DNA of 64,000 nucleotides, taken from assembly GCA_028753945.1 (NCBI GenBank), contig JAPNXP010000002.1:15383624-15447623 (forward strand). Direction: 5' to 3'. The notes below the pieces were generated by a model. That model was not told the DNA's origin, made no database searches, and worked only from the letters and a program-made list of their open reading frames with translations. The DNA comes from Hexactinellida sp. DTS-2022. Lineage: Eukaryota; Porifera; Hexactinellida. Of the stretch, positions 10,893 through 44,913 are shown piece after piece (position 1 is the stretch's first letter; each line of letters starts with the position of its first letter). Position numbers and translations under genes: made by a program.

Positions 10893-11223
10893 ATAAATTA
10901 TTACACAAAGTTTTAGTTAATACTGCAACTATACACATTCTATAAACTGCAACTATACACATTCCATCAAATTGCAACTATACACTTTCTATAAACTGGA
11001 ACTAACAACAGAGTTGTGTCTCGAGTGTGGGAACTTTCTGTCTCGTGAGAGAACTCTGTTCCATCAAAACAGATATTCTTCCACGAATCTGCTTATTAGC
11101 CACAATGTTGCCAGAGTATATTCTGCTACACACGGGACTATAAGTAATGCTACTGTCTCTGCTCACACAATTATACACACAGCAACCTAACAGTCTCACA
11201 ACCAACCTAACTACAGAGCACAA

Positions 11224-12480
11224 ATGGCAGAACGGTACCCAGAAGTTCCCCTCCCCACGGACCCGATCGAGGCTCGCATTCACGCGAAGTTTGATCAGCT
11301 GATCGTCTGTCTCAACCGCAGACGGGAACAGCTGATCGCCGAGCACCGAGAGAGACAGGAGGAGAGACGCGCCGCGACCACAACTCGCGTTCGGACGGTG
11401 AGAGAGCTGGCCGACTCGAGAGCTAATCTCCAAACCCAAATGAAGGAGAACCTGCTCCGCTCCATGCGGGAGAGAATGGTAGCGGAGATCGAGACTCGGA
11501 TGGCACAGCTGGAGGTGTCGGAGAGAGAAGTGGAGGTGTTGTTTGAGTGCCACACTCGACAGCTGGAGGAGACCATCTCTGCACTGGGACAGCTGGCAGA
11601 GAGGGAGATAGTTCCAGTTCCAGTTCCAGTTCCGAACTACCCCGCACTCCTACAACCTCGGATCTCAGTCGGGAAGGAAGGAACAGGTATGGGAGAATTT
11701 GACTGGCCTGAAGGAATAGCTTTCGATGAGCGAACTCAGCTCATATACGTGGTGAACGTACATCTATTTTCAATCAATAATTGTATTATTGTATTCTCTG
11801 TTACCGGAGAATACATTAATACATTCTGTAAGGGACAAGTTAAGGTGCCAGCAGGCATAGCCATTAATGGGGATGAGGTGTATGTGAGCGACTCAGGCCT
11901 GCATTCCATTCTCCACTTTAAGTTGCCAGGTTTCCGGTTAATAACTAAGGTAAGCAAGCTAGGAACTGGTAACGGAAAGTTCGATTGTCCTCACCAACTC
12001 ACAGTAGCGCCTAACGGGTCTCTGTTTATAGCAGATACATTTAATAACAGAGTAGTAGTAATGACAAATAAACTCGAATTTAAACTGTCCATCTCGCATG
12101 CCAGCATGACAAAGCCACGTGACGTCAAACTACTGGGCAATGAGGTGTTTGTTCTCAGCTCTAGTGACAACCCGTGTCTCCATGTATTCTCACAAACTGG
12201 TGAGAAACTCCGCTCCCTCATAACACGTGGCACACAGGGAAACGAACAAGTTAAAAGCGGATACTTCTTCTGTTTCGACAAACAGCAAAATATCCTTATT
12301 AGCGACTATGCAGCTAATTCCATTAAAGTATTCTCTCGAGAAGGAGCTCTGCTACACACACTGGGAAAGACACAGGAAGAAGATAGGAAAATACAACCCA
12401 GAGGAATAACAGTGACAGACAACAACAAGATTATTTGTGCTTCTGTTCATACTAAGTTTTGCTTGCATATTTTCTATTAA
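11224..12480 (+). CDS. Coiled-coil NHL-repeat (TRIM-NHL-like) protein, copy 2
   Basis: Single-exon gene, 418 aa, with the same plan as the gene at 931-2190: coiled coil about 15-125, VPVPVPVP linker, NHL propeller about 150-418 (PEGIAFDE, PAGIAING, PHQLTVAPNG, ADTFNNRV). No RING or B-box. The first 135 codons and about 300 bp of 5' flank are nearly identical to the other copy, and similarity stops at the stop codon. Most differences sit in the propeller and change amino acids, especially just before each P-x-G-I/L motif and in adjoining loops. One codon is missing relative to copy 1 near residue 177 (NVHLF against NGNPLF). Intact and probably functional. Confidence 0.85.
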   Translation: MAERYPEVPLPTDPIEARIHAKFDQLIVCLNRRREQLIAEHRERQEERRAATTTRVRTVRELADSRANLQTQMKENLLRSMRERMVAEIETRMAQLEVSEREVEVLFECHTRQLEETISALGQLAEREIVPVPVPVPNYPALLQPRISVGKEGTGMGEFDWPEGIAFDERTQLIYVVNVHLFSINNCIIVFSVTGEYINTFCKGQVKVPAGIAINGDEVYVSDSGLHSILHFKLPGFRLITKVSKLGTGNGKFDCPHQLTVAPNGSLFIADTFNNRVVVMTNKLEFKLSISHASMTKPRDVKLLGNEVFVLSSSDNPCLHVFSQTGEKLRSLITRGTQGNEQVKSGYFFCFDKQQNILISDYAANSIKVFSREGALLHTLGKTQEEDRKIQPRGITVTDNNKIICASVHTKFCLHIFY

Positions 12481-12633
12481 AAGTTTAATTAAACTGAATT
12501 TTTGTTTAAAAATAGATCCTAAGACTTTATTTAAAATCGAATCTACATATTAATTGTTCATTTTCCCTGAAATATAAATTCTAATTATGGAACATTATTT
12601 GGTTCCCTTTATAGTTCCAATTAGCTCTACAGA

Positions 12634-18506: not shown

Positions 18507-38350
<19,844 letters not shown>

Positions 38351-39472
38351 ACAGACAGATATACTAAGGCGTTCATTTGTTAGTTAGTTTGTTTGTTTGT
38401 TAGTTTGTTTATTTATATATTTATATATTTACTTGTTTGTTTATTTGTTTACTTGTTTGGTTGTTTATTTACTTGTTTATTTACTTGTTTGTTTACTTGT
38501 TTATTTACTTGTTTATTACTTGTTTATTACTTGATTATTTACTTGATTATTTACTTGTTTATTACTTGATTATTTACTTGGTTGTTTGTTTGTTTATTTG
38601 TTTATTTGTTCACTTGTTTACTTGTTTATTTACTTGGTCGTTTGTTTGTGTACTTTATTGTTTACTTGGTTGTTTGTTTGTACACTTTATTGTTTACTTG
38701 TTTGTTTATTTACTTGATTGTTTACTTGTTTATTTACTTGGTTGTTTACTTGTTTACTTATTGATTTATTTGGTACTTGTTTACTTGTTTGTTTCCCCAG
38801 AGGCCAGCTATGGAGAACCACTCTTCACTTCTTCCTACAGAGAACACCTTTTAATATTTTACACTAATTAGCTTGATTGGAAATGCGCCTATGAGAATGC
38901 CACCTGCTCTGGGTACTAATCTCCAATTATGTTAGCTTGATACTTTATGCATGTTCTTGGATTTTATTCGTGTATAACTGTGTCTATTGTTTATCATTTG
39001 TTTACTTTGTTAATTAAGGGAATATTGTATTTGTTAATAACTGATTTCTAGAGAGGGTTGGTTTATGCACCCTTTATAGGACTTACCCCATCACTAAACT
39101 AATATAACCTCGTTAGTAGAACACGGTTATACGAACACTATTTCAGTCCCCTTCAAAGTCTTTTCAATACAAATGATATTGGTTAATAACTTAATACGAA
39201 TTCCGGATAAGGCGAACGCATTTTGACGGTCCCCTGGTGTTCCTACTAACGATTCCCAATTCCTATCTGATTAATTAAATTAGTTTATTTAATCAATTAA
39301 CTTCATGCATCACAAATGAAGGGAATTAATTTAACAATGAATTATAGCATGTAAATATTAACAGAACAATGACAAGTTAATATATCTACATATTGTATGT
39401 AGATATAGCATGCAAAGATTAATTTATCATAGTAGCTATTAACAAATTAAGACCTTTGCATTAGTATAAATA
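38351..39472. other. ROCK downstream region
   Basis: 38380-38795 is (TTTG)n/(TTTA)n-rich sequence. It ends in a good acceptor-like tttccccag (38801), which could open a 3'UTR or alternative terminal exon (frame ASYGEPLFTSSYREH, stop at about 38868). 39100-39255 is a family A MITE. 39256-39472 is AT-rich with nothing identified. Confidence 0.5.
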
Positions 39473-40606
39473 TTATTTTTCACCGATTAAAGGACGGAAC
39501 ATATCTTCCGACCGAATACCGGTGTAGTTCTTGTAAACTCCCCTTTTCTTCAAAAACCTTTTAATTGCCTCTTTCCAGATGAACAGATGGTACAAAGTAA
39601 ACGTAGACATTGAAATTAATGCGAATATATTATACAACACATCGTACACTCGGAATCCAATGTCAACAAAGTCTTTGTTTTGTGAGGAAACGTTTATCCA
39701 TTGTATGTCCAAATCGAAAAATATTTGATTTAGTATGCAATGGTGATATAAAATCATTTTAAGGACATTCTCATAGCAAATTGCAAGTAACGTAATGACA
39801 AACGAAATCAAATAAATGACATACAGTATTGAACCTGTCTTGTATTCCCTACACATTCCATCTAACCTCTTGTGTGACTGGGGATCTTCAAACCAAGCGT
39901 CTAGCCGTCTCCACTTCAGCAGCAGATACAGACTACGGCTGTACTTAATGTACAGACACAGATGGATAGGGAATACATAAATAATTAATATACTAACCAC
40001 AAACAAAAAAGCCCGCCAATAGGTTATGCTTATCCATATAAGGATCAGCTGTATTAGCAGCCAGACTAGCAACACCTTATCTCTCCTAGCTAGGCTAACC
40101 ACACGCTTAATGGCGTAGGCATGGGACAGGTAGGAAGTCAGTGTGTGGATAAGAGACGTGTATATAAGCAAGGAAGATATTTCCAGAGCTAGTAGGGCCC
40201 CTGCGAAAGGGTGATAATATATTTCCTCAATCAAATATGACCCTCCAGGACAATTTGGTATGGCCTGTTGAGGTATACTATTAAATACTATTACCAATAT
40301 GAGTATAAACCAGAATACGAATGACTCGGTAATACATATAGCCGCTATAAAAACAGACTTTATATAGTCTACCCTTGCATTGATCAGTTCCTCATAACAC
40401 CTCTCTTCTCTCTGTTTCTTCAGATAGTGTATCTTCTTTCCCAGCTCTCTCACTCGGGACACAAAGTAGACACACCATACGATCGTTAAAAACGCGATCC
40501 CAAATCCTAGCAGCCCAATTATAACCTGACATGTGTATATAACTATTTTATCGTACTCATTCGTAAAATAAGATTCATTTGGAAATTTCACTAAATGAAT
40601 AGCCAT
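39473..40606 (-). CDS. Seven-pass membrane protein, paralogue A
   Basis: Single-exon gene, 377 aa. Hydrophobicity suggests an extracellular N-terminus with an N-glycosylation site (NESY), then seven membrane segments at roughly 21-49, 84-108, 143-165, 179-200, 201-223, 263-287 and 325-350, with Lys/Arg-rich loops where a GPCR would have its cytoplasmic loops (RVRELGKKIHYLKKQREER; KWRRLDAWFEDPQSHKR). One Cys lies in the loop before segment 3 (NCPGG) and another after segment 6 (HHCIL), a possible disulphide. No known receptor motif such as DRY or NPxxY is seen, so I do not assign a GPCR class. It shares its N-terminus and about 260 bp of upstream DNA with paralogue B. Confidence 0.85.
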   Translation of the reverse strand: MAIHLVKFPNESYFTNEYDKIVIYTCQVIIGLLGFGIAFLTIVWCVYFVSRVRELGKKIHYLKKQREERCYEELINARVDYIKSVFIAAICITESFVFWFILILVIVFNSIPQQAIPNCPGGSYLIEEIYYHPFAGALLALEISSLLIYTSLIHTLTSYLSHAYAIKRVVSLARRDKVLLVWLLIQLILIWISITYWRAFLFVVSILIIYVFPIHLCLYIKYSRSLYLLLKWRRLDAWFEDPQSHKRLDGMCREYKTGSILYVIYLISFVITLLAICYENVLKMILYHHCILNQIFFDLDIQWINVSSQNKDFVDIGFRVYDVLYNIFALISMSTFTLYHLFIWKEAIKRFLKKRGVYKNYTGIRSEDMFRPLIGEK

Positions 40607-41498
40607 ATTATTGAGGAATAGTTTAATAATTAATTAGCAAGGAACTACATATATATATATTGTTTAAGGTGTCCCTATATATTATCCCTCTGTAACGCAA
40701 TACAACTGATGATCTGGTTAATTTATCCTATGAAATAACTGGATTACTCTTAGCATTTGTAATCATAGTGTAATCAGTAAAAAATATTTTCTGGAAATTC
40801 AAACGTTCGTTATAAGTTGAATAATTTTTAATTCAAATAGAAATAACTTAGGCCACTGTTTGTTGGAATCTTGTTTCAGCTCCACCGCCCGCGTCAGATT
40901 TCCCTCCCGCACGAATATTGTCAATATTGTCATTATTCCCATTATTACACCTACATTTCAAGTAAGGCCACTGTTCGTTGCCAATTTTATTGTAGGACAC
41001 ACTCTAAAATAGGCATAATTAGCTAGTAACAAAATCAGAACCTATAACAAGCATTATTACCCAACGATTACATATTTTATCAATAAGCACTGACAAATTA
41101 GAATATTTGCTCAGATAATTATTAACTATGTCGTCATCAAATAATGATATAATGACAATGCGATGCCGCCCGCCCGCATCCTCTGATAGACTTCGTGTGG
41201 AGCTGAAACAATATTGTCATTAACAGTGGCCTTGTATGTAGACCGTCTATTTATAGACCAGGTTTTTTACTTAAATACTATTACCCATAGACGGCAGGGG
41301 CTTTTGTCGACATAATTTATAGATTTTTGCTTAGTTTGTATGGGTTTTATAAACCGTCTACATAGTATAAGGAAGCTCATTAAATTACTGTATTTAATTT
41401 CAATAAAAAATGACAATTCATATTTTTAATTAATACACAAAAACTATTAGTAATATTAATATTATTTTTTGTTATTGTTGTTATTGTTATTGTTGTTG
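40607..41498. other. Spacer between seven-pass genes A and B
   Basis: 40607-40860 is the 5' flank shared with gene B (word ggaactacatatatatatat, then gtgtccctatatattatccc). 40853-41232 may be an element with ends aggccactgttt and aacagtggcctt. 41236-41380 is a family E MITE; GTT repeats lie near 41465-41500. Confidence 0.5.
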
Positions 41499-42623
41499 TT
41501 AGTTACTGACGAGTAGGGGTCTGTACATTTCCTTTGCACCATTCTTGTAAGCGATTCTCCTTTCCCACAGTCTCCTAACTGCTTTGCACATAATATACAA
41601 ATGTAGAGCAAATAGAAATACAAAAACAAATATAGAAAATAGTTGGTACAAAATGTTAATTACGTCAAAGCATATGTTAATAGTGTCTTTGTGTTGCTCG
41701 TAAGCTGACTTTAACCAATCGATTTTCCAGTTAAAGAACACAAAATCAATCAAACAAGAGTCACTAAACACCATTTCTATTAAATTTATTAAAAACTCGA
41801 TAGTTAACGCAACAACCAATAGTACCATTGATGTAATATACAGTACGGAACCTGTCTTGTACTCCCTACACATTCCATCTAACCTCTTGTGTGACTGGGG
41901 ATCTTCAAACCAAGCGTCTAGCCGTCTCCACTTCAGCAGCAGATACAAACTACGGCTGTACTTAATGTACAGACACAGATGAATAGGGAATAAGGAAATA
42001 AGGAATATACTAACTACAAATATAAGAGCCCGCCAATAGACTATGCTTATCCATATAAGGATCAGCTGTATTAGCAGCCAGACTAGCAACACCTTATCTC
42101 TCCTAGCTAGAATAACGACACGCTTAATGGCGTAGGCATGGGACAGGTAGGAAGTCAGTGTGTGGATAAGAGACGTGTATATAAGAATAGAGGAAATTTC
42201 CAGAGCTAGCAAGCCCCTTGCGTACGTAAAATTTGCTACTATGTCAACTAGCGTGAAACCTTTGCATTGAAAATGTTTGTGTTCATAAATAGCTAAATTA
42301 AATACGAATGTTCCCAAAAAAAAGCAGATCATAGCGAGAACCTCAAAACCCGATATAGCCGCTATGAAAACAGACTTTATATAGTCTACCTTTGCATTGA
42401 TCAGTTCCTCATAACACCTCTCTTCTCTCTGTTTCTTCAGATAGTGTATCTTCTTTCCCAGCTCTCTCACTCGGGACACAAAGTAGACACACCATACGAT
42501 CGTTAAAAACGCGATCCCAAATCCTAACAGCCCAATTATAATCTGACATGTGTATATAACTATTTTATCGTACTCATTCGTAAAATAGGATTCATTTGGA
42601 AATTTCACTAAATGAATAGCCAT
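41499..42623 (-). CDS. Seven-pass membrane protein, paralogue B
   Basis: Single-exon gene, 374 aa, same topology as A. The first 50 residues and the loop 1, segments 3-4 and loop 3 blocks are almost identical to A. Segment 2 and the following loop (FQCKGF), the end of segment 6 and the next loop (DSCLID) differ strongly. Its C-terminus (RRLWERRIAYKN..KEMYRPLLVSN) matches gene C rather than A, making it a mosaic of the two neighbours. Stop is TAA at 41499, within GTTGTT-rich DNA that gene C also has after its stop. Confidence 0.85.
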   Translation of the reverse strand: MAIHLVKFPNESYFTNEYDKIVIYTCQIIIGLLGFGIAFLTIVWCVYFVSRVRELGKKIHYLKKQREERCYEELINAKVDYIKSVFIAAISGFEVLAMICFFLGTFVFNLAIYEHKHFQCKGFTLVDIVANFTYARGLLALEISSILIYTSLIHTLTSYLSHAYAIKRVVILARRDKVLLVWLLIQLILIWISIVYWRALIFVVSIFLISLFPIHLCLYIKYSRSLYLLLKWRRLDAWFEDPQSHKRLDGMCREYKTGSVLYITSMVLLVVALTIEFLINLIEMVFSDSCLIDFVFFNWKIDWLKSAYEQHKDTINICFDVINILYQLFSIFVFVFLFALHLYIMCKAVRRLWERRIAYKNGAKEMYRPLLVSN

Positions 42624-43830
42624 ATTGTTGAGGAATAGTTTAATAATTAATTAGCAAGGAACTACATATATATATATGGTTCAAGGTGTCCCTATATATT
42701 ATCCCTCTGTAACGCAATACAACTGGTAATTTGGTTAATTTATCCTATGAAAAAACTGGATTACTCTTAGCATTTGTAATTAATAGTGTAATCAGTAAAA
42801 AATATTTTCTGGAAATTCAAACGTTCGTTATAAGTCGAATAATTTTTAATTCAAATAGAAATAACTTCTATGTAGACCGTCTATTTATAGACCAGGTTTT
42901 TTTACTTACTTAAATACTATTACCCATAGACGGCAGGGGCTTTTGTCGAAAACATAATACATTATCCCATTAACTTCTGTTAAAAAGTTCATTATTTATA
43001 ACGTTATGATGACTCTTACAAACAACATACATTTTTATATTCTTTTATCTAAAAAATGCAATTACTAGCATTACGTTAAGAATACGCCTTCGTTATAAAA
43101 TGCAATATATATTACTTCATTATAATCCCAATAGATATTCCCCTTGTGTAATATCTCTTATTAATAGTAAATAATTTCTTAGTACGTATGATGTAATATA
43201 TTATACTCTCCACTCTTGCTCACAAATATTACTTGATATTACTAATTGAATATATAGGTAATACAGTATAAGGGGTTTATCTAGGATTTTCTTTGCCGGC
43301 ACTTGACTATGGAGGTTAAATTTTACAGCACCCTAAAGGTGTTAACCATAATACATAATCGGTATAATTCAATGATGCTGCATTATCTGAAATAGGTTAA
43401 ATTTGTACTGACTGAACCCAAACAGGGATTTCAAGGCCAGAAAATCTGGTCAGACACCTGGCACCAAATTAAGTGACAACCCGACACCTAAATGGAATCA
43501 CACTGCAAGCACTTTTGCACCTCAACCGATGCCTGACTGGCACCTATATAACCTTGTACAATACCTTCTGCTTTATTGGGTCTAACTATGTTTGGACCAA
43601 AGTGAGCCACTTAAGCGGAATCAATTGTATTATGTTATGCTATAATGATACTTTAAAATAGTTAGCATTTAATCAAATATAAATTGTCAACAAAACAGGT
43701 TATTAATTTATTACAAAAAGGATATTTTTAAACACCATATCTGTTGTTGTTGTTGGTTGTTGTTTGTTGTTTGTTGTTGTTGTTGTTGATGTTGTTGTTA
43801 CTGTTGTTGTTACTGTTGTTGTTGTTGTTG
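42624..43830. other. Spacer between seven-pass genes B and C
   Basis: 42624-42870 repeats the 5' flank of gene A. 42868-42960 is a truncated family E MITE. 43270-43560 is a family J element (gcaccctaaaggtgttaacc, tggcaccaa words). 43740-43830 is GTT/GTTT repeat at the 3' end of gene C. No further gene seen. Confidence 0.55.
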
Positions 43831-44913
43831 TTAGTTACTGACGAGTAGGGGTCTGTACATTTCCTTTGCACAATTCTTATAAGCGATTCTCCTTTTCCAC
43901 AGCCTGCTAACTGCTTTGCACATAATATTCAAATGTAGAGCAAACACAAATACAAACGTACAATCAAATAATATATTATATGCAAATTCCAATATTTCGA
44001 AGCTAACATCAATTGGACTCTGGAATTCGTTGTATACTGTTTGTAGCCAAGGAAAGTTCGAATTGAATACCAAATTGAGGAAGCAAGTTTGTGTTAGCAA
44101 CAATTTCAGTGCCACATTTATAGTTACTACTAGTGCGGCTATTCCTATAAGCACAACTGATACAACATACAGTATTGAACCTGTCTTGTACTCCCTACAC
44201 ATTCCATCTAACCTCTTGTGTGACTGGGGATCTTCAAACCAAGCGTCTAGCCGTCTCCACTTCAGCAGCACATACAGACTACGGCTGTACTTAATGTACA
44301 GACACAGATGGATAGGGAATAGGACTAGTGTTAGAGTAAAAACGACAAATATAAGAGCCCGCCAATAGGCTATGCTTATCCATATAAGGATCAGCTGTAT
44401 TAGCAGCCAGACTAGCAACACCTTATCTCTCCTAGCTAGGCTAACCACACGCTTAATGGCGTAGGCATGGGACAGGTAGGAAGTCAGTGTGTGGATAAGA
44501 GACGTGTATATAAGCAAGGAGGACATTTCCAGAGCTAGTAGGGCCCTTGCGGAAATGTAATGATACGATTCTACTAATATGTAGTTTCCAGTGCAGTTAT
44601 TTATATTTCTAATTTTGACAATGTTATTATTTATACCTATTTCTACGATTGGTACAAATAAAGCGAGAACCTCAAAACCCGATATGATCGCTATGAAAAC
44701 AGACTTTATATAGTCTACCCTTGCATTTGTCAGTTCCTCATAACACCTCTCTTCTCTCTGTTTCTTCAGATAGTGTATCTTCTTTCCCAGCTCTCTCACT
44801 CGGGACACAAAGTAGACACACCATACGCCAGCTAGCAACACGATTCCCACTGTCGAACTGATGAAAATTATTGAAGACAAATCTGATATTATTCTGTATA
44901 CTATATAATTCAT
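43831..44913 (-). CDS. Seven-pass membrane protein, paralogue C
   Basis: Single-exon gene, 360 aa. The N-terminus (MNYIVYRIISDLSS) is unrelated to A and B; from WCVYFVSRVRELGKK onward it carries the same cytoplasmic blocks (LSHAYAIKRVV, LARRDKVLLVWLL, KWRRLDAWFEDPQSHKR) and ends like gene B. The loop before segment 3 contains NNCTGN with a potential glycosylation site; the loop after segment 6 has QTCFLN. The start chosen is the first Met of the frame; it gives a hydrophobic first segment of normal length. Confidence 0.83.
   Translation of the reverse strand: MNYIVYRIISDLSSIIFISSTVGIVLLAGVWCVYFVSRVRELGKKIHYLKKQREERCYEELTNARVDYIKSVFIAIISGFEVLALFVPIVEIGINNNIVKIRNINNCTGNYILVESYHYISARALLALEMSSLLIYTSLIHTLTSYLSHAYAIKRVVSLARRDKVLLVWLLIQLILIWISIAYWRALIFVVFTLTLVLFPIHLCLYIKYSRSLYVLLKWRRLDAWFEDPQSHKRLDGMCREYKTGSILYVVSVVLIGIAALVVTINVALKLLLTQTCFLNLVFNSNFPWLQTVYNEFQSPIDVSFEILEFAYNILFDCTFVFVFALHLNIMCKAVSRLWKRRIAYKNCAKEMYRPLLVSN

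Follow-up and report, generated by a model that had tools for sequence, protein, structure and literature searches.

What kind of protein is encoded by three adjacent, intronless and mutually related genes on contig JAPNXP010000002.1 (C11) of the sponge Hexactinellida sp. DTS-2022? The genes lie in the 64,000-nucleotide stretch analysed here (C11:15383624-15447623, the window). An initial annotation, made from the letters alone, had described them as same-strand intronless genes of 360-377 amino acids (aa) and placed them in a seven-pass membrane family. The exact positions were reproduced and the frames are intact, each gene being a single exon with an uninterrupted ATG-to-stop open reading frame (ORF):

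39473..40606, minus strand: gene A, intronless ORF of 377 aa, seven-pass family member
41499..42623, minus strand: gene B, intronless ORF of 374 aa, seven-pass family member
43831..44913, minus strand: gene C, intronless ORF of 360 aa, seven-pass family member

The three genes belong to a real, large and dispersed seven-pass family that is not recognised by the libraries searched. With some confidence, on sequence grounds, we regard them as members of a large family of diversified cell-surface receptors with the N terminus outside and the C terminus inside (N-out, C-in), probably of chemosensory use.

A dispersed family of predicted seven-pass proteins

Topology was predicted with a simple hand-set program that combines hydropathy with the positive-inside rule. 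Genes A, B and C all gave seven segments, N-out and C-in, in line with the roughly seven hydrophobic segments described earlier. The basic intervening loops were likewise borne out: the inner loops carry a net charge of +4 and the tail +6 or +7, and the outer parts range from -4 to +1. The Cys described in each of two outer loops corresponds to A119 in outer loop 1 and A290 in outer loop 3, both invariant among the three; four more invariant Cys lie outside these two sites. AlphaFold2 models of window proteins were poor and unusable (mean predicted local distance difference test scores of 52.9 and 48.8).

In order to count the paralogues, the genome (112.4 Mb, 18 contigs) was examined by chained single-protein searches at E-values (E) up to 10, the first search up to 0.001. 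As a result, 57 distinct family places were listed, the genome search counts being lower bounds. From these, 51 members could be read as single-exon frames that stay open for 343-432 aa, counted from the first ATG, so that what had been taken for a paralogue family has at least 51 members in this genome. All of them end in a stop codon except L065 (387 aa), which reaches the edge of the fetched stretch. The places left out are a 250-aa frame (C15:1055613), a 99-aa frame (C16:5082548) and four places with stops (C3:480052, C18:2031329, C18:522118 and C18:3195317). Thirteen of the 51 had first been brought in only by E above 0.001. A profile of the other 38 recovered all thirteen at 1.6e-24 or better (two of which, L076 and L080, are closely related to members in the profile), the best of 204 reversed or shuffled decoys being 1.7e-5. 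The members are found as singletons and small clusters on C1-C7, C10-C12, C15, C17 and C18. L071 (C15) and L076 (C2) are 86% identical in protein sequence on different contigs, which suggests a recent inter-chromosomal copy. On viral and prokaryotic contigs, each scanned with a pair of short peptide patterns that would detect distant kin poorly, no relative was confirmed; the lineage specificity suggested in the initial annotation is a conjecture.

Seven segments with N-out were predicted for 38 of the 51 members, including L068 with its odd helix spacing, versus 0 of 153 shuffles; among the first 23 members the number was 22. The remaining 13 gave five to seven segments in other arrangements, and N-in predictions had seven passes in 1/51 and six passes in 6/51. 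Alignment revealed a shared anatomy consisting of a Trp in transmembrane segment 1 (TM1; 44/51), an acidic residue (Asp/Glu) in TM2 (49/51) and another in inner loop 3 (47/51). Outer loop 2 comprises 1-6 residues in the seven-pass predictions, L068 excepted, and the median lengths of outer loops 1 and 3 are 32 and 35 residues. When segments were projected from gene A onto all 51 members, inner loops 1 and 3 measured 33-48 and 36-43 residues. Mean net charges are +5.0, +2.6, +5.8 and +4.2 for inner loops 1-3 and the tail, and -0.7 and -0.6 for outer loops 1 and 3. N-glycosylation sequons occur in outer loop 1 of 37 members and in inner loop 1 of 15. A tail motif, P-[LIF]-[LIMV] within the last 28 residues, is present in 28/51 members (2.2 expected); an acidic dileucine tail (5/51, 2.5 expected) is not claimed.

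Concerning the outer-loop Cys, 40 of the 51 members carry both, seven neither, three the loop 1 residue only and one the loop 3 residue only (Fisher p 8e-6, not corrected for kinship); the loop 3 residue falls in the aligned column in 34 members. This co-occurrence suggests that a disulphide links the two loops.

Neither Pfam, NCBIfam nor PDB sequences gave a convincing match to the family. For A, B and C themselves nothing rose over noise in Pfam at E up to 10, and their three-sequence profile matched no PDB chain. No GPCR (G protein-coupled receptor) family appeared in Pfam, either among the 15 families matched by 23 members (E up to 10) or among the 25 listed out of 33 weak ones for all 51 members (E up to 1). 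The candidates that did appear were judged hydrophobic-helix noise: HemY_N and LapA_dom (0.0095) in Pfam with 51 members, and TMHC2_E and connexin in the PDB search with the 51-member profile. TMHC2_E, a designed helical protein, was the best match in that search (0.0053); with a 23-member profile it reached 0.044 and a stretch of the EP4 receptor 0.065. NCBIfam matches were confined to one or two members each. Among them, MG406 (7.9e-6, a single member) was set aside as noise, and no clear transporter hit was found, the TRK transporter model TIGR00934 scoring at noise level (1.4e-4, 20 bits versus a cut-off of 442). The literature, in a search that went by titles and the openings of abstracts, was mostly sponge-restricted and in part covered 12 of 2,623 and 15 of 211 matches, yielded no description of such a family.

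A mosaic of homogenised and divergent segments

A point missing from the initial annotation is that the DNA of the three genes is near-identical in parts and not in others. The tracts are as follows:

39819..40208, minus strand: homogenised core of gene A, 94.1% identical to gene C 44165-44555
39821-40205 vs 41838-42222, minus strand: gene A core against gene B core, 92.7% identical
41838..42222, minus strand: homogenised core of gene B
44165..44555, minus strand: homogenised core of gene C
40343..40483, minus strand: second homogenised tract of gene A (codons 42-88), 97.8% identical to gene C
42333..42498, minus strand: inner-loop-1 tract of gene B, 96.4% identical to 44662-44827
44662..44827, minus strand: inner-loop-1 tract of gene C
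40607..40849, minus strand: 5' flank of gene A common to gene B
42624..42867, minus strand: 5' flank of gene B common to gene A
41470..41624, minus strand: 3' end and 3' flank of gene B common to gene C, 91.6% identical to 43802-43956
43802..43956, minus strand: 3' end and 3' flank of gene C common to gene B

The core begins midway along TM3, takes in inner loop 2, TM4, TM5 and inner loop 3, and ends in the first part of TM6; the second tract of gene A covers the end of TM1, inner loop 1 and the start of TM2. The flank match between A and B extends into the genes (515 nucleotides, 97.1%, 40336-40849 with 42353-42867). A fourth copy of this C11 sub-cluster, L004, lies outside the window, 43 kb away on the same contig. 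Among the four copies, DNA identity is 91-98% in the blocks of inner loop 1 and the core and 36-48% in the outer segments, and identical residues in the homogenised blocks use the same codon at 93/99 to 39/39 sites. Identity changes abruptly along the copies (15-codon windows), and in five of the six pairs an island of 36-58 codons lies between two homogenised tracts. No silent donor cassettes were seen: a DNA search with gene A returned four loci including itself, and a search with A and B together was dominated by copies of an interspersed repeat (scores for 40 of 1126 candidates).

We then compared all 38 pairs of members at 40% protein identity or higher. The mosaic was present in 14, drawn from five sub-clusters on five contigs; these 14 were picked because they show it, and pairs within a cluster are not independent. 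In these pairs the core is 82-99% identical in DNA, synonymous sites included (just 82-84% in the C4 pairs with L054), and the outer-loop-1 and TM6/outer-loop-3/TM7 segments are 36-68% identical. Where the amino acid is identical, the same codon is used at 79-98% of core sites versus 29-82% of outer sites (Fisher p 2e-3 to 2e-11, below 4e-4 in 13 of the 14). By segment finder, the core starts at A134-A156 in 11 pairs, merging with an upstream tract in the other three, and ends at A256-A278 in all 14. Taken by sub-cluster, it spans A134 or A150 to A262-A264 in C11 (the A-B pair merges with the upstream tract), A150-A156 to A258-A270 in C4 and A152-A264 in C2. In C15 it spans A152 to A257-A266 in two pairs, the third, L062/L085, running A1-A256; in C12 it reaches A278, merged with inner loop 1. 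Cores of the five sub-clusters are 19% identical to one another on average. The outer segments are on average 27% identical inside a cluster and 11% identical across clusters, so that most cluster mates look like old paralogues.

Purifying selection alone is unlikely to account for the identical blocks, as these have synonymous codons in common as well. For the mosaics, a recent duplication with fast change of the outer parts is also unlikely, as the outer segments have lost shared synonymous codons too. The pattern fits ectopic gene conversion among old paralogues, a process that would keep the core alike. Outer segments would rarely be converted, or such conversions would be removed; it is likely, although not proven, that selection keeps the outer islands apart.

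If so, the proteins may be divided into two surfaces. A recognition surface would comprise upper TM2, outer loop 1, the top of TM3, upper TM6, outer loop 3 and TM7, probably stapled by the disulphide between outer loops 1 and 3, and would bind ligand outside. A signalling surface, coinciding with the core from mid-TM3 to the start of TM6 and joined by inner loop 1 in some sub-clusters, would couple inside. Recognition could thereby diversify while coupling stays constant. The mosaic lends indirect support to the earlier suggestion of a receptor.

Several observations weigh against the receptor reading or limit it. In the libraries searched the family has no homology to a characterised receptor. 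Constancy inside strictly holds for the core alone: homogenisation of the inner-loop-1 tract is confined to C11, C12 and L062/L085, inner loop 1 being 49-66% identical in C4, C2 and the two L086 pairs, and the core also takes in the outer ends of TM4 and TM5. The pair L062/L085 shares its whole first half, outer loop 1 included. In 3 of the 14 within-cluster pairs the outer identity (12-16%) does not exceed the between-cluster 95th percentile of 17%. Ratios of nonsynonymous to synonymous change (dN/dS) were 0.97 and 0.70 outside and 0.32 and 0.21 inside in two evenly diverged young pairs; in the mosaic pair L062/L085 they were 0.62 and 0.63, and in none of the three does the outside value exceed 1. 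Finally, 24 of the 38 related pairs lack a clear mosaic. Of these, 22 link eight members of the C3/C1 subfamily, where the contrast is mild or the similarity even along the whole length; the others are L071/L076 and L060/L061.

Other readings of the family and comparison with known systems

The mosaic might be a mere by-product: purifying selection would keep the core convertible, and drift would have carried the outer parts below the similarity that conversion needs. Outer diversity would then need no selection in its favour, and the proteins might act in transport or serve a structural role. We regard this as possible, at odds well short of even. Conversion is generally known to require sequence identity, the dN/dS outside comes near 1 without exceeding it, and the 24 pairs that lack the mosaic are in keeping with drift of this kind; a neutral alternative of such kind is raised for other paralogues in PMC3728101. 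On the other hand, both ends of the core lie at similar places in the protein in all five sub-clusters, although the cores themselves differ widely, and the C11 islands persist between two tracts. PMC3728101 also names Rh factor and opsin paralogues in which islands of divergence are kept against gene conversion. The likeness lies in paralogues homogenised except for diverged segments; unlike there, one core layout recurs here in five sub-clusters, and C11 has two tracts with an island between.

A bolder extension of the receptor reading, which we offer only tentatively, is that the family would be a new receptor superfamily with its own seven-pass fold, a converted core and a variable sensor, serving this organism as a main repertoire for sensing its environment in place of class A GPCRs. 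In a six-frame genome search with PF00001, a single place, L088 (C10:695461-696381), lay above the cut-off, versus at least 51 members of the present family; exons were searched separately and eight candidates scored, so that intron-split receptors may be missed. L087 (C11:284116) is a weak GPCR-like ORF below the cut-off (PF00001 9e-6).

That the proteins are highly divergent GPCRs, with an inner surface binding heterotrimeric G proteins, is a special case of the favoured receptor reading, with which its chances overlap (as do those of the alternative readings with one another), and we consider it rather doubtful. The predicted N-out seven-pass topology and basic inner loops would agree with it, the homogenised core covers the segments generally known to contact the G protein, and the genome has at least one ordinary class A receptor. 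However, E/DRY-like, NPxxY and CWxP motifs were found in 0/51 members in the aligned regions, which also counts against receptors in general; together with the lack of a GPCR family among the Pfam matches listed, this agrees with the earlier statement that no DRY, NPxxY or other known signature is visible. The control L088 matches Pfam 7tm_1 at 6.9e-29 and has DRF and NPIIY. Neither L087 nor L088 resembles the family: the 38-member profile misses both, and profile comparison gave probabilities of 0.1 and 0.3%, a weak test with single sequences. Class A GPCRs share with the family seven passes, N-out and C-in with basic inner loops (predicted here), and possibly the logic of ligand outside and coupling inside. 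The family differs in lacking a sequence match and the three motifs, in its outer loop 2 of 1-6 residues (seven-pass predictions other than L068), in an inner loop 1 of 33-48 residues that is generally unlike GPCRs, and in placing its Cys in outer loops 1 and 3. In class A GPCRs, the top of TM3 is joined to loop 2 by Cys.

If the members are receptors, a repertoire of at least 51 genes would have been overlooked by Pfam-based GPCR surveys. The survey of the sponge Amphimedon collected receptors by Pfam models (PMC4302439), and absence of the family from it is expected because the family is invisible to Pfam. From sequence alone, the repeated mosaic points to the parts that may recognise and to those that may signal, and both are directly testable.

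It is improbable that the proteins are ligand-gated ion channels, with seven-pass subunits assembling into a pore, which would work like insect odorant receptors but lie in the opposite orientation. A repertoire of 51 or more genes that lack GPCR motifs, the very short TM4-TM5 link with long inner loops, and the acidic residue in TM2 of 49/51 would all suit a channel. Nevertheless, N-out rather than N-in is predicted, and the TYx5QF-type motif of TM7 occurs in 0/51 members in the aligned C-terminal part. The insect-type seven-pass channels (odorant, gustatory and gustatory-receptor-like; OR/GR/GRL) thus resemble the family in being a large repertoire without GPCR motifs and differ in orientation (predicted) and motif; no such Pfam family was among those listed for members. 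Allorecognition or self-recognition, proposed in the initial annotation, found no support in this analysis and is very unlikely. Parts that vary outside and stay constant inside would suit such a role; against it, outer loops 1 and 3 are short (medians as above), no Pfam adhesion domain was listed, and there are at least 51 dispersed loci, not one polymorphic locus.

Other features of the window

An Rfam scan of the window gave no match. Between genes A and B, at 40838-41233, lies an interspersed repeat of ~395 base pairs (bp), with at least 39 other copies on 14 contigs at 92-96% identity. Its ends are inverted (GGCCACTGTT...AACAGTGGCC), and it looks like a miniature inverted-repeat transposable element (MITE). 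The matching 5' flank of gene B appears without this repeat. At 30370-33835 a unit of about 178 bp is repeated in tandem, ~19 times by length, the shifted self-matches of the array being 92-96% alike in self-comparison. An inverted pair of NHL-repeat genes (923-2493 and 10918-12488) is 94.4% identical over 1577 bp, and similar ORFs were noted by eye in L031 and L033. A long degenerate TTTG/TTTA-type repeat extends over 38376-38794, and a hydrophobic ORF resting on it (38437-38871) is probably spurious.

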